64,000 nt of DNA from Sulfurimonas indica (GTDB lineage Bacteria; Campylobacterota; Campylobacteria; Campylobacterales; Sulfurimonadaceae): assembly GCF_009192995.1 (NCBI RefSeq), contig NZ_SDID01000003.1, forward strand, positions 1-64,000. Direction: 5' to 3'. The translations under genes were made by a program, and so were the position numbers. How positions within the stretch are numbered: the first letter of the stretch is position 1; every line of letters begins with the position of its first letter. Below are positions 39,192 to 46,303 of this stretch, in pieces. The notes under the pieces were generated by a model. That model was not told where the DNA came from and searched no databases. It was given only the letters and a program-made list of their open reading frames with translations.

Positions 39192-39633
39192 AAAGAGAGT
39201 CATCATATCTGCTTGTATTTTGGGTGAATATTGCCGTTATGATGGTAAAACGAAAAAAATCTCTGCAGTTGAAGAGGCTTATAGAGGATGGGAAATTATC
39301 CCTTTTTGTCCTGAAGCACCGCTCTTTGGTACGCCACGTGAGCGTATCAATGTAGTTGATGTTAATGGTGAACATAGAATTATCACTGATGAGACAAATG
39401 TTGATGTGACAAAGAAGCTGCGTGAGGAGATAGAGAGATTTTGTAAAGAGCATCCTCACGCAGATGCTATTGTGCTCAAATCCAAATCACCATCATGTGG
39501 TTATGGAACAACTCCCATTTTAGATAAAGATAAAAATGAGCTAGCAAAGGGTAATGGCATTGCTGCTGATATTTTTAACCTATTTTACAAAAATGTGCAG
39601 ATTCAAGATGAGAATCAGTTTATATCCGAGTGA
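39178..39633 (+). CDS. DUF523 protein, related to 2-thiouracil desulfurase TudS
   Basis: The 151-residue protein has the DUF523 pattern: SACILGEYCRYDGK near the N-terminus, FCPE in the middle and KSKSPSCGYG at the end. In characterised TudS these cysteines bind a [4Fe-4S] cluster that removes sulfur from thiouracil. The start is TTG at 39178, 10 nt after GGAG, inside the end of the aldehyde dehydrogenase gene. It overlaps convergent rnz by 14 nt. A link to salvage of thiolated RNA bases is an inference. Confidence 0.8.
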   Translation: MSSAKKRVIISACILGEYCRYDGKTKKISAVEEAYRGWEIIPFCPEAPLFGTPRERINVVDVNGEHRIITDETNVDVTKKLREEIERFCKEHPHADAIVLKSKSPSCGYGTTPILDKDKNELAKGNGIAADIFNLFYKNVQIQDENQFISE

Positions 39634-42085: not shown

Positions 42086-44146
42086 ATGAGAAAAATTGCG
42101 ATATCGATTTCACTATTCGCTGCTTCTCTTTTAGCAGAGTCAGTAGTAGAGATTAATCCAATCAGTGTTACTGCAACAGGGGTCGAAGAGAATGTTTTGG
42201 AGCAGCCGCTAAGTATTGCTACAAAAGCCGAAGATGAGATAAAACTTGACCAGGTTGTTTTTCAAAAAGATCTGTTAAACTCGCTCTCTGGTGTGAGAAT
42301 CGAGCAGACAGGTTCTGTTATCGGGCATATGACAGCTATTCGTATGCCAATTAATACTGGTCCATACTATCTTTTTATGCAAGATGGGATTCCCGTACAG
42401 TCAGGAGGGTTTTTTAATCACAATGGCTTGGCATATACGACTTTTCAATCAGCAACGTCTGTTGAGGTTTTAAAAGGAGCTGGAACTGCACTCTATGGTT
42501 CGGATGCTGTTGCGGCAGTTGTCAATGTACAATCAGCAAAGGCCCCTTCAAAAACAAAAGAGATAATTATTAAAGGTATGGGTGGAAGTAATGGGTATGG
42601 TTCTGCTTCTATTGAGATGAGTGACTCAATTGATAAAGAGAGTGGATATAGAGCAAATGCATCTTATATGCACAGCGATGGTTGGAGACAACACACAAAA
42701 ACAGATAGAGCTGAAGCAAATATTCGTTATGATAAAACACTTAACAGTGATAATGATATGAAAGTTGTTTTCAACTTTTCAAAAACAGAGGCTGATCAGG
42801 CAGATACCTTTAATGATTATGAAAACATAACAAATGGTTCGACTGCTGCAAGTGATGACAGTAAATATTTTGATGCTTTAGAGCAGACAAATGTTCAAAG
42901 AAAATTTGATTATGCACGCCTCTCTTTAGAGTGGAGTAATTACTCTTATGAGGGTTTAGAGATTAGCACAACACCATATATAAGGTACAATCGAAATCGT
43001 TATGTTGCTACATGGGAACCAAACCTTCCAAGTAATGACAATGAAATGGTAACGTTAGGCTTATTACAAAAGAATACACTTGATGCTTCATGGGGACGTT
43101 TTATTGCAGGGTTTGATGCAGAATATACACAATCATCTCTGAAATATAATCAAGACTTTGATAACAATGTTACATCGTGGAGTGGTTCAACCTTTTATCC
43201 TGCAGGACCAATTTATGATTATGATGTAGATTATATGGCAATAGCTCCGTATATGCATGCTGATTATAATGTTAACAAAGAAATAATCTTAACAGCAGGT
43301 TTGCGTTATGACTATAATAGATTTGATTATAACAATAATTTGAGTGATGGTGCTGATGCCTCTGGTAAATATTATCGTCCTGCTGACAGAACAGACAGTT
43401 TTAACCATGTAAGTCCTAAGTTATCACTGAGTTTTAGACCAAATAAAAGTATAAATGCATATATCCGCTATGCAAATGGTTTTAGAATCCCACAGGCAAC
43501 ACGACTCTATTCAATGAAAGCAGGGTATGAGAATATAACACTTGATCCAGAAAAAACAAATACTTATGAAGTTGGTCTCAAAAACAGACTCAATGATAAA
43601 GTATTAACGGAGATAGCACTTTATTATATGACGATAGATGATACGATTACAGAGTATAGACCAACTGTTGGGGATAGATATTATGATAATGGTGGAACAA
43701 CGATTCATAAAGGTATTGAATTGACACTTGATGCAAAAATGAGTCAGGATTTTGCAACACATATCGCCTATTCATATTCAAAACATAATTATGATAATGA
43801 TATAAATTATGGTGATAATGAGATGGCAAAAGCACCAAATAATTTGGCAAATGTTCGTCTGATTTATACACCAAGTGAGATAAATGGTTTAACTCTAATG
43901 GGTGAATGGCAGTATGTTGGTTCATACTGGATGGATGATGACCATACTGTTGATAGATATAAAGGTTATAATATTGGCAATTTAAAAGCAGATTATGTTC
44001 TTAATAAACATTTAACATTTTATGGAAAAATTACCAATATTACAGATGAAAAATACTCTGTGAACTCTTATTACGCTTATGGAAAAGAGAACTACACACC
44101 AGGTGATCCAAGACAATTTTATGCAGGATTGAGCTATAAATGGTAA
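42086..44146 (+). CDS. TonB-dependent outer-membrane receptor
   Basis: The 686-residue protein has a signal peptide (residues 1-17), a plug domain with PISVTATGV as probable TonB box region, GVRIEQTGSVIGHM and LYGSDAVAAVVNVQSAK, and a beta-barrel with alternating aromatic residues ending in YKW, a typical terminal aromatic. It should import an iron complex, heme or similar. A Fur box lies upstream and GGGAG precedes the ATG. It overlaps the membrane protein downstream by 7 nt. Its codon use is more AT-rich and it contains no CTCACGCA copies, unlike its neighbour. Confidence 0.9.
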   Translation: MRKIAISISLFAASLLAESVVEINPISVTATGVEENVLEQPLSIATKAEDEIKLDQVVFQKDLLNSLSGVRIEQTGSVIGHMTAIRMPINTGPYYLFMQDGIPVQSGGFFNHNGLAYTTFQSATSVEVLKGAGTALYGSDAVAAVVNVQSAKAPSKTKEIIIKGMGGSNGYGSASIEMSDSIDKESGYRANASYMHSDGWRQHTKTDRAEANIRYDKTLNSDNDMKVVFNFSKTEADQADTFNDYENITNGSTAASDDSKYFDALEQTNVQRKFDYARLSLEWSNYSYEGLEISTTPYIRYNRNRYVATWEPNLPSNDNEMVTLGLLQKNTLDASWGRFIAGFDAEYTQSSLKYNQDFDNNVTSWSGSTFYPAGPIYDYDVDYMAIAPYMHADYNVNKEIILTAGLRYDYNRFDYNNNLSDGADASGKYYRPADRTDSFNHVSPKLSLSFRPNKSINAYIRYANGFRIPQATRLYSMKAGYENITLDPEKTNTYEVGLKNRLNDKVLTEIALYYMTIDDTITEYRPTVGDRYYDNGGTTIHKGIELTLDAKMSQDFATHIAYSYSKHNYDNDINYGDNEMAKAPNNLANVRLIYTPSEINGLTLMGEWQYVGSYWMDDDHTVDRYKGYNIGNLKADYVLNKHLTFYGKITNITDEKYSVNSYYAYGKENYTPGDPRQFYAGLSYKW

Positions 44147-45474
44147 AAAGTTACAAACTACATAAGTTCTTTGGACTCTCTGCAGGGCTTGTGGTGCTTA
44201 TTTTAAGTGTCACAGGTTTTTTTCTTGACCATGATAACTGGAACTTTCTCTATACAACAACGATAAAACACTACCCAGACTCACTCAATGATGTCGATAA
44301 AAGACTCTTTACTTCTTACAATGTAGATTCACAGAACCATGAACATATTTTAGTCGGATCAAAACGTGGACTCTATGAAAGTTATGATGGTGGAAAAACT
44401 TTTCAAAATATTTTAGCTTTACAGATCAATGCCATCAAAAAAGCAGATAATGATAAAATTTTTTTAGCAACATCAGAGGGTATTTACACTATAAACAATG
44501 ATAAAATTCAAGCATATATGCTTGGGGGAAAATATATCAATGCAATGAGTATTTGGGGAAATACTTTAGCAGCTGTAGAGGATAAAACGACAATTTATCT
44601 TATCGATATAAAGAACAAAAGAATTGAACAAAACCTACATGTATATCTGCCGAAAAATGCTTTGCGTGAGGATATCAAACTCTCTCGTTTTGTAAGAGAC
44701 CTGCATTATGGAAGAGGGCTTTTTGATGGAGATATTTCACTCTATATCAATGATTTTGGAGCGATTGTTTTAACATTGTTGGGAGTGAGTGGGTTTTTTA
44801 TCTGGTACTTTATTTATAAAAAGAGAGCTGCAAAAAGCTCACGCAAGTGGATTAAGTATCATGCAAACATTGTAACGATTATGTCCGCTGTACCCGTACT
44901 TATTCTCTTGGTAACAGGTATCTTTTTGGACCATGGTGAGGGGCTTGGAGAGTTTATGAAACGTACAGCAATTCCTCACGCAGTGCTTCCTCCTGTTTAT
45001 GATAGCCTAGAGCATGATATATGGTCGATTGACTATGATGGAAAAAACTTACGAATCGGTAACAGATATGGAGTGTACAAGAGTGATGATTTAAAGCATT
45101 GGAGTTTAGAGAGTAGAGGGTTTGGCTACTCTTTAACACGAGATGGCAATTTGCTCTATGTTGGCGGTATGGGAGCGGCAAACAGAGTTTATGACAAAGA
45201 GTGGAAACTTCTTCCAAATACACCGCATATGTTTAAAGATATAGTAAAAGAAGATGACAAAAAAGTCTTTTTCTCTGCACATATGACAGATCTAGCTCTG
45301 CCAAAATTTCAAGATATTACGCTATATTCTCTTCTTTTAACATTGCATGATGGGACATTTTTTGCATCATGGTGGGTATGGATAAATGATTACGCGGCAT
45401 TTGCAACGCTGTTGCTTTTTATAACGGGAATATTACGTTGGTGGAAGAAAAAGAGGCTCACGCAAAGAGCTTGA
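44140..45474 (+). CDS. PepSY-type membrane protein with duplicated halves
   Basis: The 444-residue inner-membrane protein has four hydrophobic helices in two similar halves. Helices 1 and 3 read VLILSVTGFFLDHD and VLILLVTGIFLDHG; helices 2 and 4 follow INDFGA and INDYAA and end with WYF/RWW and a basic loop. Between them lie beta-rich periplasmic segments (GSKRGLYESYDGGKTF). This is the PepSY-associated TM pattern of proteins that sit beside TonB receptors and may reduce or move iron; the histidines at helix edges could bind heme. Coupled to the receptor by a 7-nt overlap. Confidence 0.75.
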   Translation: MVKSYKLHKFFGLSAGLVVLILSVTGFFLDHDNWNFLYTTTIKHYPDSLNDVDKRLFTSYNVDSQNHEHILVGSKRGLYESYDGGKTFQNILALQINAIKKADNDKIFLATSEGIYTINNDKIQAYMLGGKYINAMSIWGNTLAAVEDKTTIYLIDIKNKRIEQNLHVYLPKNALREDIKLSRFVRDLHYGRGLFDGDISLYINDFGAIVLTLLGVSGFFIWYFIYKKRAAKSSRKWIKYHANIVTIMSAVPVLILLVTGIFLDHGEGLGEFMKRTAIPHAVLPPVYDSLEHDIWSIDYDGKNLRIGNRYGVYKSDDLKHWSLESRGFGYSLTRDGNLLYVGGMGAANRVYDKEWKLLPNTPHMFKDIVKEDDKKVFFSAHMTDLALPKFQDITLYSLLLTLHDGTFFASWWVWINDYAAFATLLLFITGILRWWKKKRLTQRA

Positions 45475-45486
45475 CTCCTGCGTGAG
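45457..45486 (-). terminator. Hairpin made of two inverted CTCACGCA copies, between convergent genes
   Basis: CTCACGCA at 45457-45464 and TGCGTGAG at 45479-45486 form an 8-bp stem around a 14-nt loop that contains the stop codon of the plus-strand gene. Read on the minus strand the stem is followed by CCTCTTTTTC, a T-run, so it could end transcription of the DUF302-like gene. This use of inverted uptake-signal pairs as terminators is known from Neisseria and Haemophilus. Confidence 0.6.
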
Positions 45487-45493
45487 ATAGCAG

Positions 45494-46303
45494 TTATTTA
45501 AAGAGTCCTGCCATATACTCTTCGATATCTCCAGGTGTACCAGAGATTGACATGAAGTTACCCATGCTGAGGTTTGGATACGAGATAGCAAGATAGTATT
45601 TTGGGTGTAAAATCTTTGCTTCATCACCTTCTATCATCACCATATATGGTAAAAATGCAGTATGCTTTTGGCCTTTTATTTCAGGAACATAATACTTTTC
45701 ACCTTTTTCAGTCGGCATTGCGATACCATAAAGTGTAGCCTTGCCTGCCTGAATTTTAAAGGCAATATTGTCAGCTGCATTTTTCTCGAGCTTCTGTACT
45801 AAATTATCCCCTTTTGCAACTTCTATCATATCTTCATAGTAAGGCATACCCATCATAAAGTGGTATCCTGCGATATCATCATCGTCAAGACCGTCTTGTG
45901 AACCTTTGAGTGTTCCAAAAGCATTTGCAAGTTTAGCATTTACCTTTTTAGCATGCTCCTCTTTGAAGTCATCCTGCATAAAAGCATGCAGAAAATATTC
46001 AGGATTTGTAAGGACAAGCTCATTATCACTACTGTTTACAAGCACTTTTTGTACAGCTGCAAAAGCTCTGTCCTCTTTTGAAGCATCATTTGTCAATGTC
46101 GGACATGTATAGGCAATAACATGATAAGAAGGATCTCCCATTACATCATACTCTCCAATTACTTTTAAGCCATTATCATGTAATGCACTTTTGACATCAT
46201 TGACACTTTTAAATGAAGCATACTCATAACTACTGACATTGTCAGCGACTAGGCTTGCTCCCAATAGCATTGTAACCAAGCCACTTAATAGAATTTTTTT
46301 CAT
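45494..46303 (-). CDS. Exported DUF302-like protein
   Basis: The 269-residue protein has a signal peptide (MKKILLSGLVTMLLGASLVA) and two similar-sized alpha/beta parts. The C-terminal KILHPKYYLAISYPNLS region and the FMSISGTPGDIEEYM end recall DUF302 proteins, which are periplasmic and often found next to sulfur or c-type cytochrome genes. Function is unknown. It faces the PepSY gene across the paired octamer hairpin. Confidence 0.65.
   Translation of the reverse strand: MKKILLSGLVTMLLGASLVADNVSSYEYASFKSVNDVKSALHDNGLKVIGEYDVMGDPSYHVIAYTCPTLTNDASKEDRAFAAVQKVLVNSSDNELVLTNPEYFLHAFMQDDFKEEHAKKVNAKLANAFGTLKGSQDGLDDDDIAGYHFMMGMPYYEDMIEVAKGDNLVQKLEKNAADNIAFKIQAGKATLYGIAMPTEKGEKYYVPEIKGQKHTAFLPYMVMIEGDEAKILHPKYYLAISYPNLSMGNFMSISGTPGDIEEYMAGLFK

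Follow-up and report, generated by a model that had tools for sequence, protein, structure and literature searches.

A candidate DNA uptake word in one Sulfurimonas group and a head-to-head pair of its copies in a probable local terminator

Introduction

Among the described systems closest to the motif analyzed here are the DUS dialects of Neisseriaceae, whose copies number from hundreds to thousands and are evenly divided between the two strands, and whose sister-lineage words share a common core, CTG (PMC3630211). Such words can also lie in inverted pairs. In Neisseria meningitidis, 226 head-to-head pairs and 0 direct pairs lie within 10 nt of each other, and the word is found in 57% of predicted terminators (PMC1852404, Table 5). 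At the same spacing, Haemophilus influenzae has 50 head-to-head pairs versus 1 direct pair, or 50 + 25 inverted pairs when both configurations are counted (PMC1852404, Table 5), and its word is found in 23% of terminators (PMC1852404). Campylobacter jejuni limits import to DNA that has been methylated at RAATTY by CtsM (PMC10046745). In the open-licence literature, we found no relevant report that Sulfurimonas or other Campylobacterota have an uptake sequence.

We analyzed a 64-kb stretch of Sulfurimonas DNA (the window) in which an octamer, CTCACGCA, occurs 32 times against 1.35 expected and a shuffle maximum of 5, and in which two copies face each other at 45457-45486. The word resembles the Neisseriaceae dialects in its hundreds to thousands of copies, in its balance between strands, and in the existence of sister-lineage words with a common core (ACGCAR here, CTG there), and its enriched overlapping dyad, CTCACGTGAG, is akin to the overlapping DUS dyads of Simonsiella. 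It differs from them in that inverted pairs are not in excess and copies lie in genes rather than being concentrated between them. Its copy density is of the same order as that of the Pasteurellaceae USS; however, direct pairs outnumber head-to-head pairs here, opposite to the H. influenzae counts (PMC1852404). With C. jejuni, it shares the phylum and, as a candidate word, discrimination of self-DNA via a short word, although RAATTY is palindromic and methylated, whereas CTCACGCA is non-palindromic. The joint explanation that we judge best, with a probability of roughly 0.6, is that CTCACGCA is an uptake tag and that, separately, two of its copies have been co-opted locally as a terminator at 45457-45486.

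Results

The head-to-head pair lies where two genes converge. The plus-strand gene (44140-45474) encodes a 444-aa PepSY_TM protein (PF03929, E 1e-22) and carries further single copies of the word at 44663, 44838, and 44975; facing it on the minus strand is a gene for a 269-aa protein without a Pfam match (45494-46303). The left arm, CTCACGCA on the plus strand (45457-45464), is coding (..L-T-Q..) and belongs to the end of the PepSY gene, and the right arm, CTCACGCA on the minus strand (TGCGTGAG on the plus strand, 45479-45486), is located between the two genes. We confirmed the description given in an earlier note, namely that the two octamers are 14 nt apart and form an 8-bp stem around the PepSY stop codon at the convergent gene ends. 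Because the PepSY gene ends at 45474, its stop codon falls inside the hairpin loop, and the stem begins 7 nt past the stop codon of the minus-strand gene.

Folded as minus-strand RNA, the stem-loop (45457-45486) gained a further 4-5 bp of inner pairing (GGAG/CUCU) on top of the 8-bp outer stem, giving CUCACGCA-GGAG...CUCU-UGCGUGAG, then CCUCUUUUUCUU, with an energy of -16.7 to -17.2 kcal/mol and a z score of -3.2 to -4.6. A T-run after the stem on the minus strand, also claimed previously, was indeed present: the U-rich tail CCTCTTTTTCTT (45445-45456, minus strand) contains 8/12 T, and the run starts 3 nt past the stem. We did not observe a T-run or U-run beside this stem on the plus strand. 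Among stems with at least five G/C and a loop of 3-20 nt, this was the sole perfect 8-bp stem in the window. Another inverted pair, TGCGTGAG...CTCACGCA (39419-39462), has the opposite configuration with 28 nt in between and sits within coding sequence. If the 32 copies were placed and oriented at random, the window would contain one or more head-to-head pairs spaced by no more than 30 nt with P ~0.11; the existence of the pair is therefore, by itself, only mildly surprising.

Gene ends were ranked by a simple home-made score that combines stem energy with U count, and the 45457-45486 hairpin ranked first among 138 gene ends sampled in its own genome (G000). A stable hairpin just past the stop codon is followed here by a U-run, as in intrinsic terminators, and the GC-containing stem, the U-rich tail, and the convergent gene pair add to the likeness. 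The site differs from them in that a genomic word supplies both of its arms, its loop pairs internally, and its U-run starts 3 nt past the stem, slightly farther away than in a textbook terminator. A standard terminator scan, which has a loop limit of 8 and a T window that opens 0-2 nt past the stem, did not list 45457-45486. Most probably, the hairpin is a local intrinsic terminator of the 45494-46303 gene, and we infer termination itself from these sequence features. The proposal that a hairpin at the convergent gene ends acts as a terminator is thus plausible for the minus-strand gene, given its energy, tail, and rank, but not obviously so for the plus-strand PepSY gene, on whose side the U-tract is missing.

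We also compared the ends of 12 intact minus-strand genes, i.e., the gene itself and 11 orthologs. In most of the 12, a strong hairpin (-12 kcal/mol or stronger) starts within ~15 nt of the stop codon; the energies in the orthologs are -15.4 (G016), -13.5 (G325), -14.8 (G365), -15.6 (G358), -15.0 (G372), -12.5 (G379), -14.4 (G331), -14.4 (G306), and -20.4 kcal/mol (G311), and those without a strong hairpin are G359 (-7.8 kcal/mol) and G328 (-0.8 kcal/mol). The position of the hairpin is conserved, but its sequence is not. None of the 11 orthologs has a hairpin made of a motif pair, and in the G016 ortholog a single copy of the word overlaps the edge of the stem. Since orthologs mostly keep a hairpin, but one of unrelated sequence, the motif pair looks like a local, opportunistic co-option rather than a system. 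A good U-tail is absent from some of the ortholog hairpins, so we regard these as hairpins first and terminator candidates second. In G063, seemingly only the last ~20 codons of the minus-strand gene are left.

The earlier note had further suggested that inverted pairs are reused as terminators in the manner of Neisseria and Haemophilus, and had called for a genome-wide search; this search did not bear the suggestion out. At spacers of 30 nt or less, G000 contains four pairs in head-to-head orientation (~2 expected) and four of the opposite configuration (~2 expected). Three of the four head-to-head pairs are intragenic and only 45457-45486 lies at a gene end, which is no excess there. Across eight motif-bearing genomes, we counted 36 head-to-head versus 82 direct pairs, a head-to-head share of 31% against the one-third that random orientation would give (excess test p = 0.77), with the counts not fully independent because some pairs are orthologous between genomes. 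Both kinds of pair were ~2-fold above uniform placement in these genomes, indicating that copies cluster mildly regardless of their orientation. For pairs within 10 nt, a count by hand in the same eight Sulfurimonas genomes gave 12 head-to-head versus 36 direct, and where loci of other genomes were sampled, almost every pair was within a gene. The pair counts, together with the mostly coding location of the copies, led us to reject a systematic reuse of the word in terminators.

The word itself is strongly enriched. Its own genome (2.09 Mb), whose contig 23 carries the window, has 757 copies of CTCACGCA versus 23 of the reversed control, a ~30-fold over-representation, and the copies are split 388/369 between the strands. 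Relative to GC skew, there was no strand bias either (87/99 in G016 and 84/89 in G000). The consensus reads [CTG]CTCACGCA[GA], or BCTCACGCAR. Positions 1-5 are strict, while positions 0, 6, and 7 are tolerant; single-mismatch versions at positions 1-5 were not in excess, unlike the H. influenzae USS, for which a decay cloud of near-matches is expected. The palindromic dyad CTCACGTGAG, formed by two overlapping cores, was found 13 times versus 0.3 in G000 and 5 times versus 0.2 in G016 (samples L119-L138 and L188-L207).

While pattern searches covered the whole genome, coding statistics were taken from a 458-kb sample of G000 with a home-made gene caller. In this sample, which has a coding fraction of 92.7%, 198 of the 205 copies were fully coding, 6 were intergenic, and 1 was at an edge. 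Copies on the coding strand used the frames 34/34/32, whereas 95 of the 98 copies on the opposite strand were in one frame, which reads x-R-E, another frame being closed by an in-frame TGA. The equal use of three frames by the coding-strand copies makes it less likely that the word stems from a codon or peptide bias. One 20-kb restriction-modification/defense island in G016 (L199, C1:1155001-1175000) had 0 copies.

Next to this dialect, other words mark other lineages. In a survey of 135 Sulfurimonas genomes, seven (G000, G016, G063, G325, G365, G367, and G380) were loaded with CTCACGCA, at 621-962 copies each; G374 was intermediate with 99 copies, and the other Sulfurimonas genomes were at background for this word. 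Outside the genus, no loaded genome was found among 282 sampled from the order. Instead of CTCACGCA, about 30 further Sulfurimonas genomes are loaded with AAACGCAG, at up to 2331 copies (consensus HAAACGCAR, or (Y)AAACGCAR). In most CTCACGCA genomes, the count of AAACGCAG lies close to background, with a slight excess in G365 and G367; the 141 copies in G016 are mostly on one strand and are probably a local repeat. Over the 135 genomes, CTCACGCAR and YAAACGCAR were essentially exclusive of each other, and they share the core ACGCAR. Further words were TTACATGTAA in lineage samples G306, G311, and G114, CTACATGTAGA in G309 and more weakly in G301 and G304, and AGATGC-type words in G416, G399, and G305.

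ComEC (PF03772) was present in 30/30 genomes tested, which makes competence possible but does not prove it; the protein also occurs in many control organisms and hence does not discriminate. The ComEC copies of G016 and G325 have one internal stop each. A second ComEC tree was built without G328 (wrong protein) and G325 (partial). In ComEC, a branch with weak support (71/97) separates the CTCACGCA group from the other genomes; those with AAACGCAG do not form a single clade, and the TTACATGTAA genomes are nested among them. AlaS disagrees with ComEC on the unity of the CTCACGCA group: its tree divides the group, and one clade was rejected at p 0.01.

A 1.3-Mb motif-bearing genome (G063, with L277 on its C31, and L040) carries the word at 0.48 copies per kb. 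In the close relative G374 (L327-L330), the word is down to 0.06 copies per kb, and no other word has obviously taken its place; G374 is possibly a lineage that is losing its word.

Discussion

Copy numbers far above chance, equality between strands, and dialects with a common core are the marks of an uptake sequence, and CTCACGCA most probably serves one Sulfurimonas group as a DNA uptake (self-recognition) sequence. The uptake-like nature that had been suggested for the word gained strength from the same copy number, strand balance, and lineage dialects, and the one restriction island without the word is in keeping with it. We envisage that a receptor would recognize the word, that DNA carrying CTCACGCA would be taken up preferentially by the competence machinery, and that, once taken up, such DNA would recombine and thereby both multiply and preserve the copies in core genes. 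Other words (YAAACGCAR, TTACATGTAA, etc.) would be used by sister lineages in the manner of dialects. At 45457-45486, two copies simply happen to stand head to head and form a strong hairpin with a U-rich tail just past the minus-strand gene.

The hairpin could also be read in two other ways. It might have no function, the stem being incidental to two copies of an abundant word that landed close by. The random-placement probability of ~0.11 is compatible with such an accident, and the remaining head-to-head pairs sit inside genes; we nevertheless consider it unlikely, as the inner stem and the U-rich tail are on the right strand, the site tops the 138 gene ends, and most orthologs have a hairpin at the same place. 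Alternatively, 45457-45486 might be one case among many if, on the model of Neisseria and Haemophilus, inverted word pairs systematically doubled as terminators. The hairpin is an excellent terminator candidate, head-to-head pairs of the core CTCACG are in slight surplus in G000 (11/25 pairs), and ten genomes with the AAACGCAG dialect contain 124 head-to-head pairs of it versus 73 expected. Against this, G000 holds just four head-to-head pairs, three of them intragenic; eight genomes show no excess; more than 96% of sampled copies are coding, and the pairs at loci sampled in other genomes are nearly all intragenic, a pattern far from that of N. meningitidis, with its word in 57% of predicted terminators (PMC1852404). 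We find systematic reuse very hard to credit.

For the word, the main rival is a methylation-marked self-recognition site, where an orphan methyltransferase would modify the word and the modified word would license uptake or block restriction. A precedent exists in the same phylum, with C. jejuni importing only CtsM-methylated RAATTY DNA (PMC10046745); AGAATTCY is strongly over-represented at Campylobacter locus L061, and the strictness of positions 1-5 would suit an enzyme. The graded tolerance at positions 0, 6, and 7 suits an enzyme less well, and we hold this account to be improbable, at about the level of a functionless hairpin. Far less probable is a Chi-like recombination hotspot or other replication-oriented motif. 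An abundant, strict, non-palindromic octamer that lies mostly in coding DNA is in keeping with one; however, strand bias relative to GC skew is absent in both G016 and G000, and words switch within one genus faster than would be expected of a recombinase site. Strand balance rules out a Chi-like orientation, and a word without orientation disfavors Chi.

Returning to the uptake-sequence reading, we lean, with little more than even confidence, toward a broader proposal: Sulfurimonas, and perhaps much of Campylobacterota, may have a new family of uptake-sequence dialects (CTCACGCAR, YAAACGCAR, TTACATGTAA, and others) that splits the genus by its own DNA tag, possibly with methylation, and that is independent of the Neisseriaceae and Pasteurellaceae systems. 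If true, word-specific natural transformation would reach a third major bacterial group, and the clear dialects within one genus would make it possible to compare lineages directly for shifts in uptake specificity and for the receptor behind it. Terminators made of inverted words would then be a feature of Neisseria and Pasteurellaceae, not an inevitable by-product of such words.

Other short words were seen along the way. TTACATGTAA was abundant at L041, L053, and L056, including a Sulfurospirillum and a Helicobacteraceae MAG, and may be shared between genera. In other Campylobacterota (L061, L072, L073, and L077), strong over-representation was seen for AGAATTCY in a Campylobacter, for AGATTCTA in two Helicobacteraceae, and for ACCTCATC in Thiovulum; these may be further uptake or methylation words. 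Finally, at L131:5960-6010 (G000 C49, ~45974), a perfect 11-bp hairpin, TTTAAATACCC-TCACGCA-GGGTATTTAAA, lies just past a gene stop with a copy of the word as its loop, possibly another motif-containing terminator of different geometry.
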